Positions 23,183 through 61,943 of a stretch of 64,000 bases of DNA are shown here, piece by piece. Numbering within the stretch: the stretch's first letter is position 1; every line of letters begins with the position of its first letter. The notes under the pieces are model-generated. The model had not been told where the DNA came from, did not search any database, and saw only the letters and a program-made list of their open reading frames with translations. A program made the translations under genes and the position numbers. Source of the stretch: a virus; the IMG/VR virus record IMGVR_UViG_3300042327_001260, positions 1-64,000 of that record; one strand, given 5' to 3'.

Positions 23183-23184
23183 TT

Positions 23185-23727: not shown

Positions 23728-24209
23728 AACAACTAATTAGAAGAATATTAAAAGAAGAAGTTGAAAACGATTATAATATGATCGATAAAGGTATTGATAT
23801 TGTAGTTAAGGTAGTAAATAAAACATTTCCTTTTATTGTCGGTTGGGAAAAAAATGGAGATTATGATGAAAGTAAGTATTATTTATACATTGATTTAAAG
23901 GTTAATGTTGATAAAGTTAAAGAATATTACGACTTACCATTTAAAGATTATTATTTAAAATATCCTGACGTAATAGATGAACAAATTGAGCGAAAAGAAA
24001 GTTTTGCTTATCCATTTAGTTTATTAGATTTTAGTTTATTAGATGATGACCCATATATTGAAAGTAAAAAAATTAAAACACTTTTTGAAGAAATGTATGA
24101 ATTGATTCCTAATGAATATAAAATGAAAGAAGAAAGACAAGATATCTTTGGTAAAATAAATGTTCATGAAAAAGACATAAATATAAATTATTATATGTTT
24201 GTTAGATGA
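23724..24209 (+). CDS. Tagged acidic alpha/beta protein
   Basis: 161 residues. Class C tag MKQLIRRILKEE. Body: a helix (IDIVVKVVNKTFPFIVGW), a strand (YYLYIDLKVNVDKV) and acidic helices, reminiscent of the repeats in the 25589 protein. Start and stop both overlap neighbours (ATGA). Function unknown. Confidence 0.66.
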   Translation: MKQLIRRILKEEVENDYNMIDKGIDIVVKVVNKTFPFIVGWEKNGDYDESKYYLYIDLKVNVDKVKEYYDLPFKDYYLKYPDVIDEQIERKESFAYPFSLLDFSLLDDDPYIESKKIKTLFEEMYELIPNEYKMKEERQDIFGKINVHEKDININYYMFVR

Positions 24210-29070: not shown

Positions 29071-29439
29071 ATGAATCTACAAGAACATATAAGAAAAGTA
29101 TTAATCGAGGAGTTTCCACAGGAAGACTACAGTAACCAAATAATTAAAAACATTAGTGCCGTTGATTCAATATTAAAGGCACTTTATCCAAACTTTAATA
29201 AAGATGGTGCACACTTAAAAGAAAGACGACCATTGTTTTGGGATAGTTTTTTATATGAATGTTTTGATAATAAAACCGATCATATATATGCGTCGTATAC
29301 CCCTACAAAAAGAGAACTACATATGAATCCAGAAATATATAAAACGCTTGAAAATTATTTAGGTGAAGACGCAGCAACGTATGTTATAGATTGGTTTAAT
29401 AGTGAGTTTGATACAGAAGCAGAACACGTTACATATTAA
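29071..29439 (+). CDS. Tagged hypothetical protein
   Basis: 122 residues. Class D tag MNLQEHIRKVLIEE (L-I-E at 11-13). The body (ISAVDSILKALYPNFNK, PLFWDSFLYECF, HIYASYTPTKRELHM) is alpha/beta and ends in an acidic helix. First of the MNLQE array. Function unknown. Confidence 0.67.
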   Translation: MNLQEHIRKVLIEEFPQEDYSNQIIKNISAVDSILKALYPNFNKDGAHLKERRPLFWDSFLYECFDNKTDHIYASYTPTKRELHMNPEIYKTLENYLGEDAATYVIDWFNSEFDTEAEHVTY

Positions 29440-29440
29440 T

Positions 29441-30040
29441 ATGAATTTACAAGAACATATAAGAAGAATATTAAAGGAAGAGACAGAAGGTATTGATGTA
29501 TTCTTAGATGAATTATCAAATACACATGATATGTCAGATGAACTAAAAGAATTCGTAAAAAAGTTTATTGAAGAATCAAACTGTAAAAGAATAAACTTCT
29601 CAAGTTTTAGTGTACCAGCATTAGGTATCGCATTAGAAACTGGGGTTTTAATTAATTCAACAGTACTTAATAGACCATTACCATTTTTGTTGTTTGTTAT
29701 ACTTCACGAAGTTGCGCACCAATATCAATTTAAAAAGTATGGTGAAGAACTTATGTATCGTTGTTATTTGGGTGATGTTTCAGAAAGACATGCCGCTGAG
29801 TTTATGAAAAATACAGAGGAAGTTGCAGATGAATTCGCGGCAAGGAAAATCAGACAACTTCAAAAGATGGGACTAATTGGTTCATTTACACCACCACAAA
29901 TGTACAAAAATATTTCATTACAACAAATATCAATGATGATTAGTCATTATAAAAGAGACATGAAAGGAAAAAATATTGACTCACCAAAAAAAGTTAGTGA
30001 ATATTTTTATAATACGGTTAAAAACCAATTACAGCAATGA
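29441..30040 (+). CDS. Tagged HExxH zinc metalloprotease-like protein
   Basis: 199 residues from ATG 29441, just after the upstream stop; an earlier start (29402) is inside that gene. Class D tag MNLQEHIRRILKEE. The zinc site is FVILHEVAHQYQFKKYG near residue 88 (HEVAH), and EEVADEFAARKIRQL near residue 130 gives a plausible third ligand, as in ImmA/IrrE-like and related peptidases. A packaged protease could cut host proteins on entry; catalytic motif seen, target unknown. Confidence 0.75.
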   Translation: MNLQEHIRRILKEETEGIDVFLDELSNTHDMSDELKEFVKKFIEESNCKRINFSSFSVPALGIALETGVLINSTVLNRPLPFLLFVILHEVAHQYQFKKYGEELMYRCYLGDVSERHAAEFMKNTEEVADEFAARKIRQLQKMGLIGSFTPPQMYKNISLQQISMMISHYKRDMKGKNIDSPKKVSEYFYNTVKNQLQQ

Positions 30041-30339
30041 ACCTACAAGAACACATAATAAAAGTATTAAGGGAAGAAACCATAAAGAAGTTTAAAAAAG
30101 AAACTGTAAATAAAGGTAAATTTTCTGATCTTTTGGAGGAACTCACAATAAGTTATCTTGGTGAGGAAAATGTATGTGATGTAGTTGCTGTGTATGTGGA
30201 AAATACATATATAATACTTGTACTATATAATGGGGATTCAGGTAATTATTTAAATGAAAAATTGGAAGTTTCTTTAAAAGCATATATACCTGTATCCTTA
30301 TTTGCTATTATAACAAACACAAATTGTGATGAGAAGTAA
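30037..30339 (+). CDS. Tagged small hypothetical protein
   Basis: 100 residues. Class D tag MNLQEHIIKVLREE (L-R-E at 11-13). Body: a helix (GKFSDLLEELTISYLG), a strand (VVAVYVENTYIILVLY), a helix and a strand. ATGA overlap upstream; overlaps the next gene by 11 bases. Function unknown. Confidence 0.66.
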   Translation: MNLQEHIIKVLREETIKKFKKETVNKGKFSDLLEELTISYLGEENVCDVVAVYVENTYIILVLYNGDSGNYLNEKLEVSLKAYIPVSLFAIITNTNCDEK

Positions 30340-30787
30340 AAAAGAACACATAAAAAAAGTATTAAGGGAAGAAACAAACATTAAACCCGTACTACACAAC
30401 CTACTTAATATGTTGTTTGATGGGTTTGATGATATGTACTACGATTGGGCAAACTATAACTGTGGTATGGGGGTATGTTGTGATCCATATGCTATCGGGT
30501 TTGTTTTACCGACACATCATTATGAAGATTATATATTTAAATTGGTTGATGATACTAAATACGATGATGATGGGGATTACCCTAAAGAATTAAGAGATGA
30601 ATTACCTGAACCTTGTTATGATTTCCCTGATGTTAAAGATCCACGTTTTAATGTAATTGTATTTTATCAGGACTTTGCCGAAGATATTGAAAACTACTTT
30701 GGTCCACAAATGAATTGGAAAGAAAGTCTTTTAAATTTAATAAACGATAAGTATGGGTGTAAAGCTTGGGATTTAATAATTATATAA
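30329..30787 (+). CDS. Tagged acidic hypothetical protein
   Basis: 152 residues from ATG 30329 (an adjacent GTG at 30326 is possible). Tag MRSKKEHIKKVLREE is a class D variant with L-R-E at 12-14. The body is acidic with Cys pairs (YNCGMGVCCDPYAIG) and FYQDFAEDIENYF. Not recognised. Confidence 0.66.
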   Translation: MRSKKEHIKKVLREETNIKPVLHNLLNMLFDGFDDMYYDWANYNCGMGVCCDPYAIGFVLPTHHYEDYIFKLVDDTKYDDDGDYPKELRDELPEPCYDFPDVKDPRFNVIVFYQDFAEDIENYFGPQMNWKESLLNLINDKYGCKAWDLIII

Positions 30788-30788
30788 T

Positions 30789-30848
30789 ATGAATATACAA
30801 AAACAAATATCGATGGGGGTAAATAACCCTATTTTTTGTTTACAATAA
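30789..30848 (+). pseudogene. Orphan tag remnant (MNIQKQIS)
   Basis: A 19-residue frame starts MNIQKQISMGVNNP and stops at once. The first eight residues match the MNLQEQIS tag, and it sits at the expected place, 1 base after the previous stop. The body has been replaced by a short hairpin followed by T. Most simply, the remnant of a tagged gene lost by deletion. Confidence 0.5.
30816..30838 (+). terminator. Weak terminator at end of class D run
   Basis: GGGT-AAATA-ACCC short stem followed by T-rich ATTTTTTG. Lies inside the tag remnant and before the nitroreductase gene. Confidence 0.5.
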
Positions 30849-30889
30849 AATTTAAAAGTTCTATAATTGAGAGTAAAACAAAAATAATT

Positions 30890-31519
30890 ATGGAACTATT
30901 AAAATCATTAGAGTGGAGATATGCCACCAAGAAAATGAATGGGGAGAAAATCCCACAGGATAAATTAGAAAGAATCTTAGAAGTCACAAGACTTGCACCG
31001 AGCTCATACGGACTTACACCATACAATGTTATTGTTGTAGAGGATCAGAAATTAAAAGAAGAACTACAAGGAGCCGCTTACGGACAATCACAATTAGCAG
31101 ACTCATCGGCAGTACTTGTGTTTGCTACATGGGACGACGTATCAGACGATGCGGTAGACATTTATATGAATGAGATTGCAAGACAAAGAGAAATCCCTGT
31201 AGAATCGTTAAATGGATTAGGTGATATGGTTAAGGGTTCACTATCTAATATGGAACATGAACAAAAAGTTACATGGGCACAAAGACAAGCATATATTGGT
31301 TTAGGATTTGCTTTAGTGGCGGCAGCAACAGAGGAAGTGGATTCAACACCAATGGAAGGATTCAATCCTGCTGCGGTAGATAGAATCTTAGGATTACAAG
31401 AATTAGGTTTAATGTCAGTAGCACTTCTACCATTAGGATATAGAGATGGTGAAAATGATTATCTTGCGTCACTAAAGAAAGTAAGGTGGGATAACGAAAA
31501 GTTCTTCATTAAAAAATAA
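30890..31519 (+). CDS. Nitroreductase family protein, NAD(P)H-dependent
   Basis: 209 residues from ATG 30890. Starts MELLKSLEWRYATKKMNG, then RLAPSSYGLTPYNVIVVED (FMN-binding region near residue 38) and GLGFALVAAATEEVDSTPMEGF near residue 145, then VALLPLGYRD. This is the NfsB-like FMN oxidoreductase layout at full length. It reduces nitro or quinone compounds or otherwise manages redox. No tag; codons somewhat less AT-rich than neighbours. Possibly acquired from the host. Confidence 0.9.
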   Translation: MELLKSLEWRYATKKMNGEKIPQDKLERILEVTRLAPSSYGLTPYNVIVVEDQKLKEELQGAAYGQSQLADSSAVLVFATWDDVSDDAVDIYMNEIARQREIPVESLNGLGDMVKGSLSNMEHEQKVTWAQRQAYIGLGFALVAAATEEVDSTPMEGFNPAAVDRILGLQELGLMSVALLPLGYRDGENDYLASLKKVRWDNEKFFIKK

Positions 31520-31523
31520 TAAA

Positions 31524-31553
31524 AGTCCCCATCCATTATAGGTGGGGTTTTTT
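31524..31553 (+). terminator. Rho-independent terminator
   Basis: CCCCA(T)CC pairs with GGTGGGG with one bulge, followed by a T tract, directly after the nitroreductase gene. Confidence 0.82.
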
Positions 31554-31563
31554 ATTTTTATAG

Positions 31564-31570
31564 TATTTAT
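31564..31570 (+). promoter_or_regulatory. TATTTAT putative late promoter
   Basis: TATTTAT, 4 bases before ATG 31575, after the nitroreductase terminator. Confidence 0.65.
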
Positions 31571-31574
31571 TACT

Positions 31575-32066
31575 ATGAACCTACAAGAACAATTATCAAG
31601 AATGAAATCAATGATGGATATATCTGATATGAATATATTAGATAAACCATTACAAATATGCGGGAAAAATCCAATTACAGGTTATTTCAGGGATGGTTAT
31701 TGCAAGACAGATAGTACAGATGGAGGTACACACACGGTTTGTAGTGAAGTGGATGATGAATTCCTTGAGTTTACAAAATCAAAAGGAAATGATTTATCTA
31801 TGTTAAAAAGCGGAGATAGATGGTGTTTATGTGCAAAAAGATGGAAAGAAGCATACGATGAAGGAAAAGCCCCGAAGGTAATTAAAAACGCCACAAACAA
31901 AAAAACATTAGATGTAATAGGTGATATAATTTTTGATACAGATTCTTCTGAAATTGAAATGAAAGAAGGTGAGTTAACAGAAAAGTGTTGGAAAGGATAT
32001 ACTCAAAAAGGAATGAAAACAATGTTTGGTAAACAATACCCTAATTGTGTTAAAAAGAAAAAATAA
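31575..32066 (+). CDS. Tagged DUF2237 protein with CWKGY tail motif
   Basis: 163 residues. Class E tag MNLQEQLSRMKSMMDI, one of the few without a clear hydrophobic-x-E end. Residues 24-110 match DUF2237 closely: NPITGYFRDGYCKT, HTVCSEVDDEFLEF, SKGNDLS, KSGDRWCLCAKRWKEA. The tail CWKGYTQKGMKTMFGKQYP is a motif of virion-associated phage proteins. DUF2237 function is unknown; its conserved cysteines suggest metal or redox. Start 31575 follows the promoter. Confidence 0.85.
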   Translation: MNLQEQLSRMKSMMDISDMNILDKPLQICGKNPITGYFRDGYCKTDSTDGGTHTVCSEVDDEFLEFTKSKGNDLSMLKSGDRWCLCAKRWKEAYDEGKAPKVIKNATNKKTLDVIGDIIFDTDSSEIEMKEGELTEKCWKGYTQKGMKTMFGKQYPNCVKKKK

Positions 32067-32839
32067 TGAATCTACAAGAACAAATATCAAGAATGAAATC
32101 AATAATGTTATCCGAAGAGATGGTACAATCTGACGGATGGAAAGTATTAGAAGAAACAATTAAAATACTTAAAAATAAAAAGAAAGTTTTATTACTAAGT
32201 TGTTCCAATAGATATAATTGGGATGAGAATAATATGGACATTCCTAAATCAAGATTGTTGGCATTACACATTAAAGAAGAATTGGGTAACAAGGCAACTT
32301 ATATGGATATCACAGAACTTAAAATATTACCATGTGAGGGTAATGTATCAAGAGCTGATGGAAACTCTTGTGGATTATTAAAAGCGGCTCTTAAAGACAA
32401 GAAAAAGAACCCCACAGGACATCATAGATGTTGGGTAAATATTAATGAACCATCAGATGAACTATGGAAGGTTAGTAAAGAATTATTTGAATCAGATGCG
32501 GTGGTATTCTTTTCATCTGTAAGATGGGGACAAGCAAATATGTATTACCAAAACTTAATGGAAAGACTTACATGGATTCAAAATAGACACTCAACCTTAG
32601 GTGAGTCTAATTTAATTAAAGATATTGAATCAGGATTTATTTGTGTTGGACAAAATTGGAATGGTGAGAATGTTACTGAAACACAAAAAGAAAGTCATGA
32701 GTATTATGGGTTCAAACCTAACAACAAACTTTATTGGAATTGGCAATACACTAAAGATTCAAATGATGAGTCACAGAAATCTTATAAAAAGTCTCACGAT
32801 AAATTTATAAAGGATATGAAATTACCTGAGTCTAAATAA
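32066..32839 (+). CDS. Tagged flavodoxin-fold NAD(P)H oxidoreductase
   Basis: 257 residues. Class E tag MNLQEQISRMKSIMLSEE (L-S-E at 15-17). From residue 40: KVLLLSCSNRYNWDEN (FMN phosphate loop region), YMDITELKILPCEG, then ESDAVVFFSSVRWGQANMYYQNLMERLTW, the hallmark of NADPH-dependent FMN reductases. It may detoxify or reduce something just after entry. The fusion of an ordinary enzyme to the MNLQEQIS start shows that the tag is separable from the body. Confidence 0.85.
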   Translation: MNLQEQISRMKSIMLSEEMVQSDGWKVLEETIKILKNKKKVLLLSCSNRYNWDENNMDIPKSRLLALHIKEELGNKATYMDITELKILPCEGNVSRADGNSCGLLKAALKDKKKNPTGHHRCWVNINEPSDELWKVSKELFESDAVVFFSSVRWGQANMYYQNLMERLTWIQNRHSTLGESNLIKDIESGFICVGQNWNGENVTETQKESHEYYGFKPNNKLYWNWQYTKDSNDESQKSYKKSHDKFIKDMKLPESK

Positions 32840-32840
32840 T

Positions 32841-33614
32841 ATGAACTTACAAGAACAAATATCAAGAATACAGTCAATGATGGGATTAAATGAAGTATCA
32901 AACCCATACAAAGTTGAATGGGAATACCCAACAAAGGAATATTTTACACAAGAATTAAGTGAGTTACTAGGAAACCCTGGTAGGTTTACAGAACAAGAGT
33001 TTTTTAATCCCGACAACTACGATACTGTTTATCGTATTATGCCACACACATTTAAAACAATTGCTGAATTTGCCAAAGGTGAAGAAGTAGAAAGTGAAGG
33101 TGAAATTAAGGACATACTTTTAAATCAAAATATGATATCTCTTTTAAAAGAAGAAAAAAGATGGAATGAATTAAAAGATATATTGATGAATGACCAACAA
33201 TGTATAGAAGAAGGGTATAAATTCTTTGGTCTTGGTGAAATGAAAGTATGGAAAGGGATAGATCCAGAAACCGGTGAATATGTTGACAATGTGGACAACA
33301 CAGATTATATGGGAAAAATAACAGATTTCTTATGGAATAAATCACCAGAAAAAGGCGTATCGTCAAGAGTATCACAACGACTAAAAGATTCAGATGAAGA
33401 AGACCCAAGAAGATTGGCAAAAAACATAGATGATTATAGAGATTACGCAAGAAGGGGTGAAGAAAGAAAACTACCACCAGCATTTGTTGTAAAATACTTC
33501 ACACAAAAAGAAGGTAATGATTATGTTTTAATTGGTGGATTCAAAAGAACATCAACAGCATTACAGATGGGGATAGAACCAATAAAAGTTTGGTATATAG
33601 ATATAACAAAATGA
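32841..33614 (+). CDS. Tagged protein with ParB/sulfiredoxin-like C-terminus
   Basis: 257 residues. Class E tag MNLQEQISRIQSMMGLNE (L-N-E at 16-18). The end (PPAFVVKYFTQKEGNDYVLI, then GGFKRTSTALQMGIEPIKVW) matches the ParB-like nuclease fold, where G-G/H-x-R-x3-A is the nucleotide-binding loop. The middle is charged and helical. May act on DNA or carry NTPase activity as ParB does. ATGA overlap with the next gene. Confidence 0.65.
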   Translation: MNLQEQISRIQSMMGLNEVSNPYKVEWEYPTKEYFTQELSELLGNPGRFTEQEFFNPDNYDTVYRIMPHTFKTIAEFAKGEEVESEGEIKDILLNQNMISLLKEEKRWNELKDILMNDQQCIEEGYKFFGLGEMKVWKGIDPETGEYVDNVDNTDYMGKITDFLWNKSPEKGVSSRVSQRLKDSDEEDPRRLAKNIDDYRDYARRGEERKLPPAFVVKYFTQKEGNDYVLIGGFKRTSTALQMGIEPIKVWYIDITK

Positions 33615-34408
33615 ATTTACAAGAACAAATAAATAGAATACAATCAATGATGGGATTAGTTAATGAAAACATTGACGATATCTTAGATAAGATTGGACGA
33701 GGAGAAGAATTATCTAAAGAAGATAAAGATAAAATGGATGCATATAACACCCATTTAAATTCAGGAGGAAATGAACAAGATTTTAATTATGAACCTGAAG
33801 TGGCAAAAGAAGAATCGGGAGAAATTGATTATGAAAGTTTATTAAATAAATTAATATATAACTATTTAAATGAGCTTTTTAAAAATTCATATTATGTCCG
33901 AGGATCCAAACAAATAGAAAGATCACCTGAATTTCTTAAGTTATTTAAGACTATGAGAAGAATGAGAGGGGATGACGAGGATGAAGAAAAGGCAACCTTG
34001 TTAAATAAATATACTATGGTTGGTTATACAACTCAAGGTGTGAATATTTGTATTTTAGCCACCGAATATAACTTATTAAATAGTGATAGAAATATATTTT
34101 TCTCTACGGCGGGACACATACTTCCAATTAGTAAATTTATTAAAAATTATGTTGATACAACTACCGATCAAAATATAAAAGACTCGTATGAGAATGAAGG
34201 TTTATTATTTAGATGGTATAATTTAAATAATTTTAAAGATGATGAGAAAAGACTTATAGATGTTGTATTAAAATGGGTTAATGATAAGTTCGGTGAGATG
34301 TATGATGAAGGTGAATTTGTCACTAAAGGAATAGGTAGTACAAAACAAATTTATTTTAAAGAGTTTATAAACGAAAATGGTATTGATGGGTACGTTAAAG
34401 ATTTATAG
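33611..34408 (+). CDS. Tagged hypothetical protein with DUF6576-like helix module
   Basis: 265 residues from the ATGA overlap at 33611. Class E tag MNLQEQINRIQSMMGLVNE (V-N-E at 17-19). Residues 22-45 (DDILDKIGRGEELSKEDKDK) match the ILDKI...G...L..E.K..L module found at the end of rhomboid-type proteins (DUF6576) and in the class A protein at 60777. The remainder is an alpha/beta body with NICILATEYNLL. Function unknown. Confidence 0.66.
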   Translation: MNLQEQINRIQSMMGLVNENIDDILDKIGRGEELSKEDKDKMDAYNTHLNSGGNEQDFNYEPEVAKEESGEIDYESLLNKLIYNYLNELFKNSYYVRGSKQIERSPEFLKLFKTMRRMRGDDEDEEKATLLNKYTMVGYTTQGVNICILATEYNLLNSDRNIFFSTAGHILPISKFIKNYVDTTTDQNIKDSYENEGLLFRWYNLNNFKDDEKRLIDVVLKWVNDKFGEMYDEGEFVTKGIGSTKQIYFKEFINENGIDGYVKDL

Positions 34409-34411
34409 AGT

Positions 34412-35074
34412 ATGAACCTACAAGAGCACATATCAAGAATGAAATCAATGATGGGGTTAATCATTGAGGAAGAACAAAGGGTTTACGAAAGCAAACCTAT
34501 TGTATTTGTTGGAACGGCAGGTGCTGGTAAATCAACAACTGCTAAAGCGGTTGCTGAAAAATTGGGAATACCTCATATAGATGTTGATGAAATGGAAGGT
34601 AGTATAGAATATGAAGAATTATGTAAGGGAGAACCTGGTGTAGAAGTTAATATTACAAGAACTGAAGACGGACATAATTATGGGTCAACAAATGATGAAT
34701 ACAAGAGATGTGTTCTTACTAAATTGTTACAAAAATATGGTGACACCAAAGTAGTTTTGGATATTGGTGGGGATAGTATAAAAAATTCTGATCTATTAGA
34801 TACTCTACCAAACTTATTTGTTTTTGGTTTACCTTTTTCACCTGAAAACGATAAACCATACATCCAATTCCTAAAACAAACTAGAAAAGACAGAGCGGAA
34901 AAGATGGGACAACCTAATTTAGAGGATGGAATCAAAGATGATGATATACAACAATCAATTAACAGTGTAAGGGAATTTTATATGGGTAAACAAAATATAA
35001 ATCCTTTCACTGAAAACGGACAAAGAAAAACAACAGAAGAACTTGTTGATGAAATTATAACAAAATTAACTTAA
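34412..35074 (+). CDS. Tagged P-loop kinase (shikimate/adenylate kinase-like)
   Basis: 220 residues. A chimeric tag MNLQEHISRMKSMMGLIIE joins the MNLQEH of class D to the ISRMKSMMG of class E, with I-I-E at 17-19. Body: Walker A IVFVGTAGAGKSTTAKAVAE near residue 30, IPHIDVDEMEG (acidic substrate site), VVLDIGGDSI and a lid-like Arg region (KQTRKDRAEKMG). This resembles small-molecule kinases of the shikimate kinase group. Substrate unknown; proposed virion cargo. Confidence 0.8.
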   Translation: MNLQEHISRMKSMMGLIIEEEQRVYESKPIVFVGTAGAGKSTTAKAVAEKLGIPHIDVDEMEGSIEYEELCKGEPGVEVNITRTEDGHNYGSTNDEYKRCVLTKLLQKYGDTKVVLDIGGDSIKNSDLLDTLPNLFVFGLPFSPENDKPYIQFLKQTRKDRAEKMGQPNLEDGIKDDDIQQSINSVREFYMGKQNINPFTENGQRKTTEELVDEIITKLT

Positions 35075-35515
35075 ATGAACCTACAAGAACATATCAGAAA
35101 AGTATTAAGGGAGGAAAACCTAAACCAATTTTTAATTAATCAAATTAAAGATAATGGTATATTAGATACATCCAGATTAGTCGGGGGGTTAAAAGAACTA
35201 ATTTATCTTTTAGGTAAAGAATATTTTACAGATGACATTAAGATTAAATTAATTAAAGAGATCGTACTTACTACAGAAGAAGAGTATCTAACTTTTATAG
35301 AGATGAATGAAAACCCATTAGTTTTAACGGATGAAGATGATCTATTAACACAAATAGAAATGTTATACCCACATGATGTTGCTGTATTTTATTATTATGG
35401 ATATGATGAAGAATCGGCAGATGAGGCATATATAAATTATGACATATTAACAAGTCGTGTGTTAAAGGATATATTTAATATGGTTATTAATTATTATATC
35501 AAAAATGAGATGTAA
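35075..35515 (+). CDS. Tagged protein with LVGG-type module
   Basis: 146 residues. Class D tag MNLQEHIRKVLREE (L-R-E at 11-13), starting immediately after the kinase stop. Residues 16-45 (FLINQIKDNGILDTSRLVGG, then LKELI) match the module carried behind class C tags in the proteins at 23185, 42776 and 43509. The rest is acidic. A key example of a tag exchanged over a shared body. Confidence 0.7.
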   Translation: MNLQEHIRKVLREENLNQFLINQIKDNGILDTSRLVGGLKELIYLLGKEYFTDDIKIKLIKEIVLTTEEEYLTFIEMNENPLVLTDEDDLLTQIEMLYPHDVAVFYYYGYDEESADEAYINYDILTSRVLKDIFNMVINYYIKNEM

Positions 35516-40841: not shown

Positions 40842-41459
40842 ATGAAAAGAATAATAAGACTTACAGAATCTGATTTAACTCGTATTGTTAAACGAACCAT
40901 TAGTGAGATGAGATTTTCTGATGACGAAGAATTTGATTCGGAAAATGAGTTGATACCTTATGATTTGTGTAGAAATATGGAATACCTTGTACATGCCGAT
41001 TTTCCAAGTGGAATGATAACCAAAGAAAAAATTATTCAAATACTGGATGATTACATGAATACCGCAAGTAGATACTTGAGAAAAAAATTAATATCATCAG
41101 ATGATTATGAAAAAATTTCTGATTGTTATGAAGAATCTATGTTAGAATTAGAAAATACAGAATATAACAAATTAAATGAAATGGAAATTTTTAAACGTGT
41201 TATTAAAGAACAAGAAGAACTATTTCACAAAAAGACAAATGAGAACGGTGTTTTTATTAGTGTTAAAGAAACCATGAATGGAATTTTTGAATTATATATT
41301 AGTGATGATGATAATGGATTTGGTGAGGTATATTCATTTGAGGGTGACAGGGGGTTAGCCAATGGAGTTTTTGTACAATCAAAATTACATGTACAAGATG
41401 GGAAAAGTGGTGAAGAAGTTTTTAATTATATTGTTGAAAAATTGCAACAAATGAATTAG
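40842..41459 (+). CDS. Tagged hypothetical protein
   Basis: 205 residues. Class B tag MKRIIRLTESDLTRIVKR, with I-S-E at 20-22. Helical acidic middle, then a beta C-terminus (NGVFISVKETMNGIFELYIS; GEVYSFEGDRGLANGVFVQS). Followed by a terminator. Function unknown. Confidence 0.68.
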   Translation: MKRIIRLTESDLTRIVKRTISEMRFSDDEEFDSENELIPYDLCRNMEYLVHADFPSGMITKEKIIQILDDYMNTASRYLRKKLISSDDYEKISDCYEESMLELENTEYNKLNEMEIFKRVIKEQEELFHKKTNENGVFISVKETMNGIFELYISDDDNGFGEVYSFEGDRGLANGVFVQSKLHVQDGKSGEEVFNYIVEKLQQMN

Positions 41460-41483
41460 TAAAAATAATTAAAACTATAAGTT

Positions 41484-41513
41484 ACCCCATTCCTAATAAG
41501 ATTGGGGGTTTTT
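41484..41513 (+). terminator. Probable terminator
   Basis: ACCCCA and TGGGGGT form a stem with a 13-base loop before a T-rich tract. Confidence 0.6.
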
Positions 41514-41522
41514 ATTATGTTA

Positions 41523-41529
41523 TATTTAT
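41523..41529 (+). promoter_or_regulatory. TATTTAT putative late promoter
   Basis: TATTTAT, 4 bases before ATG 41534. Confidence 0.63.
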
Positions 41530-41533
41530 CTAT

Positions 41534-42223
41534 ATGAATGACAATGAAATAAATAAAATCATAAAAATTTGTTATAATCAATTTTTGGAGAAGTCCTATG
41601 ATTTTAATGGGTTAACTTTAAAACCTGTTTTATATGATGGTAGAAATGGTTATGAAATATTTTGGGAATTAGAAAATAAAAAAAACATATCCTGTAACGA
41701 AACTATTGTTGTTGATTACATTCACGACATTATCAATGAATTCTCAACACTTGTTAGTAACAGTGAATACAATTTATATAGGCACAATTGGAAAAGACTT
41801 TGTAAATTGCAAACAGATATATTCCCAAAATGGGGGATGTACATTAATGGTAATGATAGAAAAAAATTAGATGATATATTATTTAATATTTCTGAAATAA
41901 ACTATAAACAATTTCACTGCGATATTGATTTCGTGGATTTTACTATAGACACCTCAGGTGGCGAAGATATATACATTGGGTATGATTGTATAATGTCTAA
42001 CGTGGTTTATAAAGGTGAAGAATTGGAGGACTTTAGTGACAAATATGTTGCAGCTATTTGTGAACTTTTTTATAACGATAGTTTTCAGGATTATCAGTTT
42101 GATTTAATGGTACCCTTTACAAGAGAGCTTGTAAATAACCCTCTTTTATTTGATAATACATACATGTATTTTACAAATGATTTTCTCGCAAAGGATGACA
42201 ATGGAAAATCGATTCTTTGTTAA
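41534..42223 (+). CDS. Untagged acidic protein, paralog of the gene at 58803
   Basis: 229 residues. Shares with the 58803 product an N-terminal helix, FNGLTLKPVLYDGRNGYEIFW (written as two parts: NGLTLKPVLYDG and YEIFW), a DYIHDIINEFSTLVS helix and several Tyr/Asp-rich strands. No tag, but late-type promoter. Function unknown. Confidence 0.67.
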   Translation: MNDNEINKIIKICYNQFLEKSYDFNGLTLKPVLYDGRNGYEIFWELENKKNISCNETIVVDYIHDIINEFSTLVSNSEYNLYRHNWKRLCKLQTDIFPKWGMYINGNDRKKLDDILFNISEINYKQFHCDIDFVDFTIDTSGGEDIYIGYDCIMSNVVYKGEELEDFSDKYVAAICELFYNDSFQDYQFDLMVPFTRELVNNPLLFDNTYMYFTNDFLAKDDNGKSILC

Positions 42224-42286
42224 ATCATTATTTCTAATTTTTTTTACACTTAATCTTCTCCAGCCACCCTCTTTTTTATTTGTGGG

Positions 42287-42293
42287 TATTTAT
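42287..42293 (+). promoter_or_regulatory. TATTTAT putative late promoter
   Basis: TATTTAT, 5 bases before ATG 42299. Confidence 0.65.
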
Positions 42294-42298
42294 TGTAT

Positions 42299-42772
42299 AT
42301 GAAAAAAATTATAAGATTAACAGAATCAGAATTAATCCGTGTTGTTAAACGTATCATTGCTGAAGATACGGAAATAAAGGGGATACAAAAAATAACTGAC
42401 ATTAAAAATCAAATTGAAAAGGTATTGGATTACTATACAATTATAGATGGTAAAGTTATCGATAAGGAATTAAATAAGGAGATTAGCCCTGAAACCGTTA
42501 AAAAGTTGGGTCCTTACTATAAAACAAAAATCGAAAGTATTTTGGTTGGATCCGACGAGGAGAATAATCAAGTTGATTCTATTAATTCAGTTAAGGATGA
42601 AATTGTAAATGGTCCTTTTAAAGATTTTTTTGGTGAGTATGATCAAATTGGTATTAATAAAAATCAAATCCAAGATTACTACACTGATATAAGATGTGAA
42701 TATTTTAGAAAAGGTATGGATAGAACCGGTAAACCTTTAAACATAAAAAACAGACCTTGGTGTACCAAGTAA
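42299..42772 (+). CDS. Tagged hypothetical protein
   Basis: 157 residues. Class B tag MKKIIRLTESELIRVVKR, with I-A-E at 20-22, exactly like the T4 I-A-E cleavage site. The body is helical and charged (ISPETVKKLGPYYKTKIESI) and ends with CEYFRKGMDRTGKPLN. Function unknown. Confidence 0.68.
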   Translation: MKKIIRLTESELIRVVKRIIAEDTEIKGIQKITDIKNQIEKVLDYYTIIDGKVIDKELNKEISPETVKKLGPYYKTKIESILVGSDEENNQVDSINSVKDEIVNGPFKDFFGEYDQIGINKNQIQDYYTDIRCEYFRKGMDRTGKPLNIKNRPWCTK

Positions 42773-42775
42773 AAA

Positions 42776-43174
42776 ATGAAACATATAATTAAAAAAATAT
42801 TAAAAGAAGAAAATATTAAATCTGATTTAAAACGTATGGTTAATTTGGATGGTTGGGAAAGTACGTACCCTTTGGTTGGTGATCCTGAAACCTTGGCACA
42901 ATTGGCATTTGATAATGATCCCATACAATTTATGGATTTATTGGTGACAAAAAGGGTTAATGGAAAATATGGTGACTATTTTGGTAATCATGAGAATAAA
43001 TTGTTTTTGCAATTTACACGAGATATTGAAATAGTTGAGGTTAATAGTGAACTTTCAGATTTTTTACGTTTTGGATTTAAACTTGATAAGGACGGAGCAA
43101 GAAATGTAATTAAAGATTGGTTGTTTGATCGTCACGGGATTGAAATAAACTCTATTGGTAAAATTTATATATAA
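42776..43174 (+). CDS. Tagged protein with LVGG-type module
   Basis: 132 residues. Class C tag MKHIIKKILKEE. The module LKRMVNLDGWESTYPLVGDP followed by LAQLAF is homologous to those at 23185, 35075 and 43509. Acidic/basic alpha/beta remainder. It follows the class B gene by 3 bases. Function unknown. Confidence 0.69.
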   Translation: MKHIIKKILKEENIKSDLKRMVNLDGWESTYPLVGDPETLAQLAFDNDPIQFMDLLVTKRVNGKYGDYFGNHENKLFLQFTRDIEIVEVNSELSDFLRFGFKLDKDGARNVIKDWLFDRHGIEINSIGKIYI

Positions 43175-43179
43175 ACGTA

Positions 43180-43186
43180 TATTTAT
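43180..43186 (+). promoter_or_regulatory. TATTTAT putative late promoter
   Basis: TATTTAT, 5 bases before ATG 43192. Confidence 0.63.
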
Positions 43187-43191
43187 AAACT

Positions 43192-43443
43192 ATGAGAACT
43201 AGAATAACAGAAAACGACGTTACAAGAATTGTAAAAAAAGTGTTAAATGAGAATACCCCGTCTTTAGAAGGTGTTAAAGATGAACTAAGAAGTGTGACAC
43301 GAAGATTAACAGCATCTATGGATGACTATGGTGCATTACAAAGAAAAGGAGATTATAAAAAAATGGGTGACGAGGTGGATAACATTCGAAGACTTGTTCG
43401 TAAACTAAAAGACGTTATTCAACAAATTGATTCTAAAATTTAA
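43192..43443 (+). CDS. Tagged small coiled-coil protein
   Basis: 83 residues. Class B tag variant MRTRITENDVTRIVKKVLNE (L-N-E at 18-20). The rest is a helical hairpin (LEGVKDELRSVTRRLTASM; VDNIRRLVRKLKDVIQQID). Perhaps a structural or DNA-contacting internal protein. Followed by a terminator. Confidence 0.68.
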   Translation: MRTRITENDVTRIVKKVLNENTPSLEGVKDELRSVTRRLTASMDDYGALQRKGDYKKMGDEVDNIRRLVRKLKDVIQQIDSKI

Positions 43444-43453
43444 ATTATACATC

Positions 43454-43479
43454 CCCCACCCTATCAAGTGGGGTTTTTT
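43454..43479 (+). terminator. Rho-independent terminator
   Basis: CCCCAC and GTGGGG pair around an 8-base loop, followed by six T. Confidence 0.85.
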
Positions 43480-43488
43480 ATTTTGATA

Positions 43489-43495
43489 TATTTAT
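43489..43495 (+). promoter_or_regulatory. TATTTAT putative late promoter
   Basis: TATTTAT, 13 bases before ATG 43509. Confidence 0.62.
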
Positions 43496-43508
43496 TAAAG
43501 TAGACTAT

Positions 43509-43955
43509 ATGAAAAATTTAATTAAAAAAATATTAAAGGAAGAAACTTTAGATAACACACTTCTTGATAGAATTGAACAAGATGGGTGGAATGAAACCGC
43601 CGAACTTGTTGGTGGGGTTGGAAACTTGCTTGATATCATCGGAAATAATAAAGAAAATATAGTTTCATATCTTATTAGTCATTATGATGATTTACATTTA
43701 GAAAGAAGGGGTGGTGATATTCTTTTAATGGATCGTGGTTTAACACTTATTAGAAAATCAGGGTTTGTCGGTGCAGTTGTGTTTGATGATTATCTTAAAC
43801 ATAGATTTGGTGAAGATGCGTATGCATTATATAACGTCTATAATATTGATTTAATAAAAGGACTTATTAATCTATTTCCTGATTTATATTCAGAAAAAAT
43901 TTCAATGTATAAAGATTCAGGAATGTATCGCAAATACGGTGAAATTTATTTATAG
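43509..43955 (+). CDS. Tagged protein with LVGG-type module
   Basis: 148 residues. Class C tag MKNLIKKILKEE. Module LLDRIEQDGWNETAELVGGV then GNLLDIIG, the clearest example of the family also at 23185, 35075 and 42776. The C-terminal half is alpha/beta (DILLMDRGLTLIRKSGFVGA). Function unknown. Confidence 0.7.
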   Translation: MKNLIKKILKEETLDNTLLDRIEQDGWNETAELVGGVGNLLDIIGNNKENIVSYLISHYDDLHLERRGGDILLMDRGLTLIRKSGFVGAVVFDDYLKHRFGEDAYALYNVYNIDLIKGLINLFPDLYSEKISMYKDSGMYRKYGEIYL

Positions 43956-46093: not shown

Positions 46094-46354
46094 ATGAATA
46101 GAAATTTATTAAATGAAATAAACCAAATGAAATTTATGTTTGGTTACAAACCAGGTAAAGTTTTATCTGAACAAGACGAACCAAAATTCGATATAGGAAC
46201 TGCGTTGTCAATATATCAAGTTAAACCTGGTGATAATTTAACAAAAATATCAAAAGAAATGGGCGTATCTGTTGATGAGATTTTAAAACAAAATCCACAT
46301 ATTAAAGATAAAAATAAAATATTTCCTGGTGACAAAATACAGATAGAGAAATGA
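46094..46354 (+). CDS. Tagged LysM-domain protein
   Basis: 86 residues. Class G tag: MNRNLLNEINQMKFMFG, then KPGKVLSEQ (L-S-E at 24-26). Residues 38-84 are one LysM domain (YQVKPGDNLTKISKEMGVSV, DEILKQNPHI, IFPGDKIQIE), which binds N-acetylglucosamine in peptidoglycan. The whole mature protein would be just the LysM, suggesting a wall anchor delivered with the virion. Confidence 0.88.
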   Translation: MNRNLLNEINQMKFMFGYKPGKVLSEQDEPKFDIGTALSIYQVKPGDNLTKISKEMGVSVDEILKQNPHIKDKNKIFPGDKIQIEK

Positions 46355-52720: not shown

Positions 52721-53185
52721 ATGAATCTTAATGAGGAAATAAATAGGATTAAATCACTAATGATGGAAAACGTTTTGAATTATAAAATTCAAACATATGG
52801 AGACATACATTCCGAAGACGGAATGAGAGTGTGTATTCTAACACCAAAAGATGATTATATTGGTGAAACAAACATCATTGGGTTCCAACACGCATTAGAT
52901 AAAAGTCGTGATCTTAAAACGTTTTTAGAAAATCAAAATGATTTATTTAATCAAGAAAATTGTGTTTATCAGTATGGTTTAAAAGTTGATGATAAATTTA
53001 GAAGACAGGGATGGGGTGAAAAATTAAAAGGTGAGTGTGATAATATTGTTAAAGGTAACGGATTCAAATACATTACAAACATAGTTAGTTGTTCAAACGA
53101 AGCGTCACAAGGATTAATGAAAAAAAAAGGTTACCAAATACATCAAACAAACGGAATAAAAGATTTATTATATTTTGAATTATAA
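52721..53185 (+). CDS. Tagged GNAT acetyltransferase
   Basis: 154 residues from ATG 52721. Class F tag MNLNEEINRIKSLMME (M-M-E at 14-16). GNAT motif A is YGLKVDDKFRRQGWGEKLKG near residue 88 (R-R-Q-G-W-G contacts acetyl-CoA), followed by NIVSCSNEASQGLMKKKGY (motif B). Transfers an acetyl group to an amine; a packaged GNAT could modify host proteins or toxins. Target unknown. Its stop overlaps the next start. Confidence 0.84.
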   Translation: MNLNEEINRIKSLMMENVLNYKIQTYGDIHSEDGMRVCILTPKDDYIGETNIIGFQHALDKSRDLKTFLENQNDLFNQENCVYQYGLKVDDKFRRQGWGEKLKGECDNIVKGNGFKYITNIVSCSNEASQGLMKKKGYQIHQTNGIKDLLYFEL

Positions 53186-56993: not shown

Positions 56994-57509
56994 ATGAAAA
57001 AAAACTTAATAAATGAAATCAGTGAGATGAAACGTCTTTTTGGACACCAAAGAGGTGTTGTAATTTCTGAACAACCCGATGTAATGGAACCTGATACTGA
57101 AACTGAGACTAGACCAAAAACTCGCCCTGGAAAACCCGATTCAGACCCATTCCCTAACCCATTTGATCCTGATAGAAGTAGAGAATTTAACCCACTACCC
57201 GATTTAGAACCACAAGGTTATGAGGAAGAAGAATTTTTTATGTCAGAACCTGACGTAATGGAACCTGATACTGAAACTGAGACTAGACCAAAAACTCGTC
57301 CAGGTAAACCTGATAGTGATCCATTCCCTAATCCATTTGATCCTGACAGAAGTAGAGAATTTAATCCTCTGCCTGATTTAGAACCACAAGGTAGATTAAG
57401 TGATGAAGAAAACGAACCTTTTATCGAAGATCCGAGCACTGACTATTCAGAAAGTAGAAGTTTAGAAGACTTAGTTGCAAAATACTTAAAAAGAAGAAAT
57501 TTTAACTAA
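56994..57509 (+). CDS. Tagged Pro/Asp-rich protein with perfect 48-residue duplication
   Basis: 171 residues. Class G tag: MKKNLINEISEMKRLFGHQR then GVVISEQ (I-S-E at 24-26). Two identical 48-residue repeats begin PDVMEPDTETETRPKTRP and end PLPDLEPQG (57075-57218 and 57249-57392). They are rich in Pro, Asp, Glu and Arg and probably disordered. A short acidic tail follows. May act as a spacer or binding scaffold inside the head. See the repeat entry. Confidence 0.72.
   Translation: MKKNLINEISEMKRLFGHQRGVVISEQPDVMEPDTETETRPKTRPGKPDSDPFPNPFDPDRSREFNPLPDLEPQGYEEEEFFMSEPDVMEPDTETETRPKTRPGKPDSDPFPNPFDPDRSREFNPLPDLEPQGRLSDEENEPFIEDPSTDYSESRSLEDLVAKYLKRRNFN
57075..57392 (+). repeat. Two 144-bp coding repeats
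   Basis: Copies at 57075-57218 and 57249-57392 encode the same 48 residues but differ at 14 codons, all synonymous, including one Ser TCA to AGT change. Conservation acts on protein, not DNA. Confidence 0.9.
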
Positions 57510-57511
57510 TA

Positions 57512-58501
57512 ATGATAAGAAGAAGATTACATGAATCACCACCTGTTGGTGACTATCTACCTGATGAGTTTAAACAACAGGCAAGGCAAGCAGGTACTAC
57601 TCAAGATAGGCAAGAAAAAATGCAAAAATTGGGTAATTTAAATCGCGTTATGAATGAACTACCTGAGGTGGAAAGAGAAAATAAACAAGAGTTAGAGGAA
57701 TTGGCTCAAGAAGCCGTTTTTAGAATTTACCCTGCACTAAAACAAATGGTGGATTCGGGTAAAGTTATAATTGATGCTAAGATAATATCAAATCCTGGAG
57801 GAAGACAAACACCACAAAATATTTCACCAAGGGAGATTGAAAAGGTTAAAGAAAAAAATCCTAATTTTTCAGCATTAGAAAAGAAAAGACATTTTCAAAA
57901 CGCACAAACACAGGCAAGGGCTTGGACGGATGGTTTTAATTATGTCTCACTTTTTATGGAAGATGAATTAAATGATATTAATCCCGCACTTTATAACAAA
58001 TATAGAGACTTTACAAAAGGTATCTCTGATTTTTATTGGGATAATGCTAACATGCTTGAAAAAATGGCTTCTATGGGTGCTGGTAGAATTGCATACTGTG
58101 ATGTTTTACCTATGGAAGGAGGTAAAGTTAAGATTGAAGCAAGAGCACCACACTTTCCTTTACTTGTACACGAATTAATTAAAGGTGCTGAATATTATAA
58201 AACAGCTCATAGTTTACCTAAAGACCCTGAACTAAGGAAAGCGTTAGTAAAATCAACCGATACCCACAAACATGAAATCCAAAACATGAATTTTGGTAGA
58301 CAATTAGTAAATGTAATGAGAGGTATTTTGAGTAAAATTAATGGATATCTTCCTTATATGGAGGTACAGATATCAACTAACATGGATATGTTACCTGAAG
58401 ATACGTATAACGAATATATGGACGCAATTGTCAATAACGACAAAGATGGGATCAGAAGATTTGTAATCTTTGCTGAAAAAATAGTAAATCAATTAAAATG
58501 A
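57512..58501 (+). CDS. Tagged hypothetical protein, possible structural cargo
   Basis: 329 residues. Very short tag MIRRRLHES (L-H-E at 6-8). Helical N-terminal half (ENKQELEELAQEAVFRIYPA), then ALEKKRHFQNAQTQARAWTD, YVSLFMEDELNDINPALYNK, and APHFPLLVHELIKGAEYYK near residue 217. HELIKGAE looks superficially like a metalloprotease helix but lacks a second His in register. Recurring length and order suggest a conserved virion protein; function unknown. ATGA overlap downstream. Confidence 0.68.
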   Translation: MIRRRLHESPPVGDYLPDEFKQQARQAGTTQDRQEKMQKLGNLNRVMNELPEVERENKQELEELAQEAVFRIYPALKQMVDSGKVIIDAKIISNPGGRQTPQNISPREIEKVKEKNPNFSALEKKRHFQNAQTQARAWTDGFNYVSLFMEDELNDINPALYNKYRDFTKGISDFYWDNANMLEKMASMGAGRIAYCDVLPMEGGKVKIEARAPHFPLLVHELIKGAEYYKTAHSLPKDPELRKALVKSTDTHKHEIQNMNFGRQLVNVMRGILSKINGYLPYMEVQISTNMDMLPEDTYNEYMDAIVNNDKDGIRRFVIFAEKIVNQLK

Positions 58502-58802: not shown

Positions 58803-59450
58803 ATGGATAAATCACAATTATATTGGTTATTTTTAGATTTTATTGGTGGTGAATCGATAGAAATTAATGGATTATACCTAAAACCCGAAAGAATTCTTAG
58901 GGATGGAATAACAATTGAGTTTTCAATTGATAATACTAATGATACGTCTTTCTATCTTGGGGTTGTTGGTGAATATTTAGATGATATTCTATTTGATTTT
59001 AGTAAATTTGTCAACCACAAGTTCAAATATCATATAGACACAAATTATCCTGAGATATATTTCAATGAAACTTTAAAAAATGATATAAAAAAGGTATTAC
59101 AATCAATTACTACTCTTAAATTATCTCGTGAGTACTCATCTCATACTATAATTGCTGAAATAAAAGGGCATAGTGTTGGTTTTAACGTTGAATCCAATTA
59201 CGATCAAATAAATATATGGAATGAATTTGATGCAAAGTCAGGAAAAGTCTATAATGAAACTACAAACACTATACTAACAACAGATTTAAATGAATGTGTA
59301 GAAAATTACATTGGAATTATTGAATCTTATAGTGCATATTTAGAATCTGACACCGTTTATCAAGAATTAGACATGGTTTTAGAAGATTATCCTTTAATTT
59401 CTACCGAATGGATAGCTCAAGTATACCATACAGGGTTTACAAACCTATGA
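58803..59450 (+). CDS. Untagged acidic protein, paralog of the gene at 41534
   Basis: 215 residues. Starts MDKSQLYWLFLDFIGG; EINGLYLKPERILRDGITIE and VVGEYLDDILFDFSKFVN align with the 41534 product. Acidic, Tyr-rich. Converges with uvrC, overlapping it by 6 bases. Function unknown. Confidence 0.67.
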   Translation: MDKSQLYWLFLDFIGGESIEINGLYLKPERILRDGITIEFSIDNTNDTSFYLGVVGEYLDDILFDFSKFVNHKFKYHIDTNYPEIYFNETLKNDIKKVLQSITTLKLSREYSSHTIIAEIKGHSVGFNVESNYDQINIWNEFDAKSGKVYNETTNTILTTDLNECVENYIGIIESYSAYLESDTVYQELDMVLEDYPLISTEWIAQVYHTGFTNL

Positions 59451-60719
59451 TAACATAGATTTACTACGTTTTTTACGGTGAAAAGTGATAACAAACCTGT
59501 GAACCTCATCTTGAATTGACGCAAGTAGGTTAAAAAACTTAGAATTTTCAAATTTTACACTATTTCCATCACAAAAATGAACAATATCTGACTTGTGAGA
59601 CGAATTTTTACCAATAGATAGTAAATCTACCTTGTCAAGTAGTGAAAGTTCCTCAAAAACCCTCTTTGCTACCCCTAATTGTCCTTTACCACCGTCAATA
59701 ATAACCATATCAGGTAGTTTTTTCTTCTCTTTTATTAATCTGGTAAACCTTCTACGTAAAACTTCATCAAAAGATGCGTAATCATCGGGACCTTCCACTG
59801 TTTTTATGTTGAATTTACGGTATTCTGACGTGTTTTTCTTACCATTTGTGTATCTAACAAGCGCAGAAACCTGACAATCACCCGCAGTATGGGAGTTATC
59901 GTACATTTCTATGTCAATTGGAGTGTTTTTTAACCCGTAGTTAGTCTTAAAGTCGTCAGCAAGTACCAAATAACCACCGATACGAGTAGTTTCAACACAC
60001 TTTTCGTACTTATCAAGGGCATTTAGTCTGAATTTGATGGTATTTGCCTTCTCAAACTCCATATTTTTACTAAATGTGTTCATTAAACGTGTTAATTTAC
60101 CTCTAAGTTGAGTAAAATTAAAGGATAACAACTGTTTTAAGTCAGTAATAGTTGAATTATACACAAATTTATTGATATTATTAACACATGGAGCGTCACA
60201 TCTACCCATATGGTACTCTAAACACACAGAAAACTTGTTATTTTCAACATTTTCAGGTGTAATATCATACGAACAAGAGCGTAAATTAAAGATATCATGC
60301 AATAATTCATACATTTCATAACATAAATTACTGTTTGACACACAAATTAGCGGATTTGAATCCAAGTTAGAGTCATTTTTTACCTCTAAACGTGGAAATA
60401 CCTCATTTGTAAGTGTTAAATACCATCTTTTTGAACGATCGTCCTTTAATTTGATGTTAAATTTAGGTTTATGGGACTTAATTAAGTCATTTTCAAGAAT
60501 AATAGCTGAATTTTCGTCCAAAGTAGTCACAAAATCAACATCTGAGACGTTTTTTACCAATATTTTAGTCTTTTCTGTGTGATTTTTGTTAGAAAAGTAC
60601 GATTTTACCCTATTTGGGAGGTGTTTTGCCTTACCAACATAGATAATTTGTCCTTTTTTGTCTTTAAAAAGGTAACAACCACTAGATTTTGGTATATTTT
60701 TAAGTTTTTCTTCTAACAT
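59445..60719 (-). CDS. uvrC: Short UvrC-like excinuclease without HhH domain
   Basis: 424 residues against about 600 in bacteria. GIY-YIG domain: SSGCYLFKDKKGQIIYVGKA with Arg of LPNRVKSYFS. Then CLEYHMGRCDAPC, a UVR-like helix pair (KNMEFEKANTIKFRLNALDK), and the RNase H-like domain with EMYDNSHTAG, VIIDGGKGQLG and DEVHRFVITFHRKKRS, where the protein ends. Both nuclease centres look intact, but the C-terminal helix-hairpin-helix DNA-binding domain is absent. It would incise damaged DNA with UvrB, or act alone in phage DNA repair. Confidence 0.92.
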   Translation of the reverse strand: MLEEKLKNIPKSSGCYLFKDKKGQIIYVGKAKHLPNRVKSYFSNKNHTEKTKILVKNVSDVDFVTTLDENSAIILENDLIKSHKPKFNIKLKDDRSKRWYLTLTNEVFPRLEVKNDSNLDSNPLICVSNSNLCYEMYELLHDIFNLRSCSYDITPENVENNKFSVCLEYHMGRCDAPCVNNINKFVYNSTITDLKQLLSFNFTQLRGKLTRLMNTFSKNMEFEKANTIKFRLNALDKYEKCVETTRIGGYLVLADDFKTNYGLKNTPIDIEMYDNSHTAGDCQVSALVRYTNGKKNTSEYRKFNIKTVEGPDDYASFDEVLRRRFTRLIKEKKKLPDMVIIDGGKGQLGVAKRVFEELSLLDKVDLLSIGKNSSHKSDIVHFCDGNSVKFENSKFFNLLASIQDEVHRFVITFHRKKRSKSMLS

Positions 60720-60776: not shown

Positions 60777-61349
60777 ATGAAAATCATAATTACAGAGTCA
60801 CAATACCGTTTTTTAATGGAAAATACCGTTGAAATTAACCAAATTTTGGATAAAATGAACGAAATTGGGTATGAAAACCTTGAAAATCACGAAAAAAACA
60901 CCCTAAATCAGTACTCAGAGTGGTTAAAAGGGGGTAAAAAGGGTGAATTTATACCTCAAAATACCCCTAAAAACACCGATTTTGACGGTGAAAACGATGA
61001 TTTTGACGGTAAAACAGGTGAAGAATACACCACTTATTTACCTGATGGTAGTGAATTTTCATTTAGATATGACTATTCTGATATATTAAATGATGAAAAC
61101 ATATACTATGGTAGTGTAAAATGGCATGGAGAAGAGTGGATTGGGTTAATTGCTACAGATAAAAAAGACAATTTAACAGAAATTGACTTTGTTTTAGATC
61201 AAGATTCGTTCCAAACATATGATTCTGAAGATGAATTTGCAGGATATGATGAAAATAAAGAGGTTAGACTACAACTTGAGATAGGAAATGACATACACCA
61301 GGTAAAATATTTCTTCCAAGAGGATGTTATACCTTATTTAGTTGATTAA
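60777..61349 (+). CDS. Tagged protein with DUF6576-like helix module
   Basis: 190 residues. Class A tag MKIIITESQYRFLME (L-M-E at 13-15). Residues 20-48 (INQILDKMNEIGYENLENHE, KNTLNQYSEWL) match the ILDKI..GY..L...EK..L module at the end of rhomboid-type proteins; the class E protein at 33611 carries a similar module. Asp/Asn-rich linker, then an acidic beta domain. Function unknown. Confidence 0.69.
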   Translation: MKIIITESQYRFLMENTVEINQILDKMNEIGYENLENHEKNTLNQYSEWLKGGKKGEFIPQNTPKNTDFDGENDDFDGKTGEEYTTYLPDGSEFSFRYDYSDILNDENIYYGSVKWHGEEWIGLIATDKKDNLTEIDFVLDQDSFQTYDSEDEFAGYDENKEVRLQLEIGNDIHQVKYFFQEDVIPYLVD

Positions 61350-61943
61350 ATTATTTTCTTTTAAGTGTTTAAACAAAGATTTCGCTAGTTTTTCGCCAAA
61401 TTTTATATCCGATGGGTAATGCGCTTTAGCCATTTGTCTTGAATATACAATATCATCTTTAATTTTTTTTAATTCTTTTCTATAGTTTGGGTATTTGTCG
61501 GATAAAACCAAGTATATTAGGTTTGATTGTGTTGAATGTCCTGAAGGATAAGCAAACCCATCGGTTGATTTTAACATGGGATCAGTTAATTTTGAATCTA
61601 CCCTAAACGGTCTTGGTCTTTTATAAAAATTCTTTAGCTCTAATATAACAATACGGGCACTTTCACCTAATTTAAAAATCAATTTTTTCTCATCAATATC
61701 CTTTGTTAGTAAAAAGTCATTAAAGTTACCATCAATATCATCGTTTTTTTGTACAAATCGTTTTTCTAAATTTATATTTTTAAGGTATTCAATTTCTTTT
61801 TTGGTTTCTTTACTGTTTTCTGGTGATGGTGGGTAATTTTTAAATTCTGTTAAATCAAAATTTTTAAATAAATTATGTTTACGAGATTCCTCGTTGATAT
61901 CCATTAAATTTTTTATTCTATTTATTTCTTCATTTAATAACAT
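61338..61943 (-). CDS. Tagged PAP2-family phosphatase, minus strand
   Basis: 201 residues. Class F tag MLLNEEINRIKNLMDINEE (I-N-E at 16-18). The three PAP2 motifs are present: LKNFYKRPRPFRVD (K-x6-RP), FAYPSGHSTQSNL (PSGH) and VYSRQMAKAHYPSDIKFGE (SR-x5-H-x3-D). No membrane helices, so a soluble acid-phosphatase type. It would dephosphorylate phosphate monoesters or lipid-linked phosphates. The tag on a minus-strand gene shows that it travels with the protein, not the operon. Confidence 0.88.
   Translation of the reverse strand: MLLNEEINRIKNLMDINEESRKHNLFKNFDLTEFKNYPPSPENSKETKKEIEYLKNINLEKRFVQKNDDIDGNFNDFLLTKDIDEKKLIFKLGESARIVILELKNFYKRPRPFRVDSKLTDPMLKSTDGFAYPSGHSTQSNLIYLVLSDKYPNYRKELKKIKDDIVYSRQMAKAHYPSDIKFGEKLAKSLFKHLKENNLIN

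Follow-up and report, generated by a model that had tools for sequence, protein, structure and literature searches.

The locus lies in a window of 64,000 nucleotides, the whole stretch of DNA analysed here. The window makes up the first half of one virus record of 128,044 bases (G000), and the duplication described below is read from that one record. The gene at 56994-57509 encodes a putative precursor of 171 amino acids in which a unit of 48 residues occurs twice, and two bases separate it from a gene for a conserved protein of 329 residues. The features are as follows, a slash within a motif marking the predicted cut.

56994..57509, plus strand: repeat-protein gene, 171 residues, putative precursor (open reading frame with syntenic orthologs in related viral contigs)
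56994..57071, plus strand: N-terminal tag, residues 1-26, MKKNLINEISEMKRLFGHQRGVVISE, predicted cleavage VISE/Q (ortholog alignment; model helix 3-15; fits L/I-x-E)
57075..57218, plus strand: unit copy A, 48 residues (sequence comparison with copy B)
57219..57248, plus strand: acidic linker YEEEEFFMSE, similar to what precedes the unit in single-unit orthologs (e.g. DDVMFAD, DVEFAE, FEFMAE)
57249..57392, plus strand: unit copy B, 48 residues (16 silent base differences from copy A)
57393..57506, plus strand: acidic tail with a conserved C-terminal helix at its end (SLEDLVAKYLKRR; ortholog alignment; model helix 157-168)
57512..58501, plus strand: adjacent conserved protein, 329 residues, short tag-like start MIRRRLHE/S, candidate partner

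Units A and B have one and the same translation, PDVMEPDTETETRPKTRPGKPDSDPFPNPFDPDRSREFNPLPDLEPQG. Their 16 base differences are spread over 14 codons (1, 2, 17, 18, 19, 21, 23, 24, 28, 33, 39, 40, 41 and 42), every one of them is synonymous, and they include a serine codon switch, TCA/AGT; the preliminary description of this DNA had reported the same identity and the same counts, which were reproduced exactly. The repeat was also detected by TRF, with a period of 174. The whole 171-residue protein matched no family in Pfam or PHROG and nothing among 50,697 phage records, and a scan of prokaryote genomes returned no relative. A structural model based on a shallow alignment of seven sequences (mean pLDDT 56, pTM 0.16) is disordered except for helices 3-15 and 157-168, in agreement with the earlier supposition that the protein is probably disordered.

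Relatives of the repeat gene

Syntenic orthologs of the repeat gene were reached in related viral contigs by using the unit and the adjacent gene as baits. The nearest relative, L003, a contig of 281 kb, has one unit and an adjacent gene 79% identical to that of the window. Single units were likewise found in L005, L006, L009 and L024, and two units in three lineages, namely the window, L028 and the L030-L041 group. The two copies differ by three replacement and eight silent codons in L028, and by 2-3 replacement and 13-15 silent codons in the L030-L041 group. In the latter group the units lie at the end of a longer protein, whose N-terminal domain is of another kind and resembles the product of the gene immediately upstream of a putative terminase (assigned by gene order and appearance) in the window phage. 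In a protein tree, whose support is limited by the shortness of the sequences, the unit copies group by lineage; the doublings therefore look independent, which would mean that the doubling occurred on separate occasions in at least two further related phage lineages.

Among 2.9 million viral contigs, the pattern at the C-terminal end of the unit (PY..[DN]P[DE]T.PQG type) matched only contigs of the repeat-protein family, once or twice per gene and never in more than two copies; the units of the window and L003 end in the NPLPDLEPQG type, so that this pattern would miss their closest kin. Two scans with DNA patterns, this one included, returned only contigs of the family, and the sampling of that collection thus looks nearly complete. 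Identical repeat genes were present in different sample records on two occasions, in L006 and L007 (3300042463_001805 and 3300042301_004325) and in L008 and L009 (3300021424_002797 and 3300021376_002797), so the same phages recur.

Strong constraint on the unit

Substitutions were simulated up to 16 differences, with the base composition of the window and a kappa of 3, in 1,500 runs per omega. The probability of obtaining zero amino-acid changes was 0 at an omega of at least 0.15, 0.003 at 0.1, 0.03 at 0.05 and 0.10 at 0.03. Both copies are therefore held at the protein level, and weak selection on them is excluded, since zero amino-acid changes are improbable above an omega of about 0.04-0.05. 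Divergence of the unit was estimated by NG86 and by raw codon counts; the NG86 dN of 0.023 between A and B stems from paths through the serine switch and not from amino-acid changes.

Between L006 and L009, silent and replacement codon differences number 17 and 1 in the unit, 4 and 4 in the tag, and 21 and 31 in the remainder of the gene (unit versus rest, Fisher P=6e-5), the unit thus being more constrained than its surroundings in this comparison. Between L030 and L032, copy A differs at 13 silent and 1 replacement codons and copy B at 9 and 1; set against the rest of the gene, the contrast (22 to 2 against 67 to 24) has the same direction, with P=0.10. Very strong constraint on both copies had been proposed in the preliminary description, together with a count of silent against replacement changes in related phages, and the proposal is supported both by the range of omega compatible with the A/B pair (about 0.05 or less) and by the outcome of that count. 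The unit is a conserved island within a fast-evolving protein predicted to be disordered, and each module is shown to be under strong purifying selection as protein sequence. Selection at the DNA level was considered and rejected, because silent sites vary freely.

Amino-acid variation among relatives, which if free would have spoken against constraint, is not free at short distance, although the unit does change at longer distance. The unit of the window or of L003 is 27-60% identical to those of the other lineages. The 27-residue core of the window differs from that of L003 by four conservative changes (S/T, D/E, R/K, E/Q), and in distant units the middle varies while a start of the P[DEG][VI] type and the PQG end are retained. 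This combination of a variable middle with conserved ends argues that the constraint acts on an interface particular to each lineage and not on a single fixed sequence.

N-terminal tags and the adjacent gene

The tag of the repeat protein ends in VISE/Q or LLSE/Q in seven orthologs, in which S25-E26-Q27 is invariant, and so matches the gp21 motif L/I-x-E. A protease of the Peptidase_S77 (gp21) type is encoded in the phage's own genome and in six of seven relatives. The record also encodes a capsid protein of the Gp23 family, with a candidate site, HLINE/A, near residue 60 that is common to six genomes; the repeat gene itself lies about 45 kb away from the head-gene cluster. The modules of the L030 group stand on a different N-terminal domain without the tag, and the tag is thus not obligatory.

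Tags are common to otherwise unrelated proteins of this phage. Identical 5-mers within residues 1-30 link 143 pairs of genes in the record; the corresponding numbers for the two following 30-residue windows are 8 and 11. This sharing involves 72 of the 154 genes; [ILV]xE occurs at residues 6-30 in 60 of them, compared with 25 and 22 at positions further in. At least five tag classes recur, e.g. MKRIIRLTESDLTRIVKRVIRE, MNLQEQISRMKSMM, MKIIITESQYK, MKNLIKKILKEE and ITESEKxxILxMY, mostly ending in L/I-x-E; these classes are regular expressions written by hand after viewing the sequences, the 5-mer count being independent of them. Stretches of tagged genes are found across the window and the rest of G000, for example at 22793-24209, 29071-35515, 40842-43955 and 15610-18952. 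Tagged genes with a named domain include the following.

15610-16470: cell-wall hydrolase domain
34412-35074: shikimate-kinase-like domain
46094-46354: LysM domain (86 residues, with a tag similar to that of the repeat protein)
52721-53185: GNAT acetyltransferase domain
61338-61943: PAP2 phosphatase domain

Beyond the window, the neighbouring genes at 75650-76918 and 76945-80199 of G000 have near-identical starts (MK[NK]NLLLEVERNLTLMGISKKVNLINEGRGEFSNRIW) and are probably paralogs. Within it, the minus strand at 59445-60719 encodes a protein of 424 residues that is UvrC-like by eye (GIY-YIG-like start) and strongly conserved in related contigs.

The most economical reading of the tags would be that they are capsid-targeting propeptides, in which case the repeat protein would be located in the head, and the tagged genes as a whole would likely represent a very large set of capsid-targeted proteins.

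The adjacent protein is predicted to be well folded from residue 10 (mean pLDDT 89). No PDB match to it was found by sequence or fold; one viral model matches (A0A6J5Q1V8, TM 0.77), and the protein is homologous to a protein of huge phages of 635-642 kb (hhalign 97.8, E 7e-13). Its gene stands next to the repeat gene at every readable orthologous locus, a count biased by its use as one of the two baits, and this pairing makes it the first candidate partner. Most likely, then, the module would bind either this always-adjacent protein or another core component.

Origin, function and known systems

We lean, with modest confidence, towards an in-frame tandem duplication of a functional module in a disordered, probably head-targeted protein precursor, followed by silent drift. 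On this view, the gene product would be made as a precursor, and its mature form would be a small phage head protein that is intrinsically disordered. An N-terminal tag some 26 residues long would guide the chain to the prohead core and would then be cut off after VISE by the gp21-type protease of the phage. The mature chain would form an acidic, proline-rich tether consisting of two linear modules of 48 residues and a C-terminal helix, each module probably docking on a partner, which would account for the purifying selection on it. The second copy would have arisen in the lineage of the window phage, most likely after its split from the L003 lineage; silent sites would then have drifted while both copies remained functional, resulting in bivalency. 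Weighing against this account are the distance of the gene from the head-gene cluster, the untagged N-terminal domain of the L030 group and the strong divergence of the module among lineages.

Much of the divergence might instead predate the doubling, if the second copy had been imported by recombination with a co-circulating relative encoding the same protein with other silent sites. The silent differences are indeed unevenly spread, with none in codons 3-16 and 12 in codons 17-42, the longest identical run being of 44 nt (run-length P=0.044 for so long a stretch of unchanged codons). Divergence of the unit at silent sites is observed between related genomes, as in L006 and L009, and a nucleotide tree does not firmly group A with B rather than with L003 (support 0.608). 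However, a donor was not found, the sole close relative, L003, having four amino-acid differences in the core, and equal constraint at the protein level would still be required. We regard such an import as rather unlikely; it would leave the functional reading unchanged.

The head location has its own competitor, in which the shared tags direct proteins elsewhere (e.g. to a replication compartment) and the binding partner of the unit is a host protein. Enzymes able to act in the cell are present among the tagged genes, as this would predict, but the L/I-x-E ends of the tags, the encoded gp21-type protease and the occurrence of the same motif at the expected place in the capsid protein all speak against it, and we consider it unlikely. 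An artefact of metagenome assembly, by which two strain variants of a single-copy gene were joined as a false tandem repeat, would be compatible with a single record and with silent-only differences typical of strain alleles; it is nonetheless very improbable, given that between the copies the reading frame is unbroken and the acidic linker, of the kind usual in the lineage, is preserved, that L030-group contigs from many samples are independently doubled and that L028 has a doubling too. Finally, the suggestion of the preliminary description that codon choice was selected to avoid recombination between the repeats, read here as protection of one copy against deletion, is hardly credible. It would predict that long perfect runs are rare and that A/B divergence is greater than drift. 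Although 14 of 48 codons differ, including a two-step serine switch, perfect A/B runs of 44 nt in the window and 39 nt in L028 persist, and the silent divergence between copies in L030, L032 and L036 (13-15 of 40 codons) is no clearer than the 9-13 obtained when one copy is compared between phages, so that codon avoidance is unsupported and ordinary silent drift suffices.

Duplication of a constrained module, as favoured here, provides a clean example from nature of how selection on a short disordered module shows up directly in the balance between silent and replacement changes, within one gene as well as across phages. The repeat gene and 57512-58501 form a small pair of genes open to testing in large phages of the T4 type. 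In a wider and more speculative reading, which we hold to be doubtful, the approximately 70 tagged genes on this 128-kb fragment would constitute a large, cleavable, capsid-targeted arsenal, the bivalent protein would be an interior adaptor docking on its neighbour, and repeated doubling would tune its valency. If this were true, with nearly half of the genes bearing tags that end in a protease site, a very large fraction of them might travel as cargo inside the head. The set of tags across the genome is the more interesting by-product.

The repeat protein is a new family of a known general kind. No similarity to a known internal-protein family was detected by Pfam, by PHROG or among the 50,697 phage records, so it is not filed with the T4 IP families but only as working like them. 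In the huge phages LR756502 and LR745206, a short Pro-rich ORF whose start is tag-like precedes a gene homologous to the adjacent one (hhalign probability 97.8), but these ORFs are without the unit; homology of the ORF to the repeat protein was tested and was undetectable despite a look-alike RPGRP stretch. A possible functional parallel, drawn from the literature, is offered by gp67 and gp68 of T4, small prohead core proteins processed by gp21, whereas the repeat protein holds a conserved proline-rich module. The inner-head ejection proteins of the giant phages phiKZ and SPN3US are cut after Glu by a gp21-like protease, but their propeptides are mostly longer than 100 residues and have the motif A/S-x-E (PMC5694885, PMC10052503).

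In T4, gp21 cleaves after L/I-X-E (PMC9026906) and takes off short capsid-targeting propeptides (PMC9026906, PMC9958956). The window phage resembles the T4 system of IPI, IPII, IPIII and Alt in having a short putative N-terminal propeptide ending in L/I-x-E that is common to otherwise unrelated proteins (PMC9026906, PMC3012670, PMC9958956), and in encoding an S77 protease and a Gp23 capsid protein in the same genome. It differs from T4 in the sequences and lengths of its predicted tags (about 8-27 residues, in at least five classes), and in the far larger number of genes that carry them.
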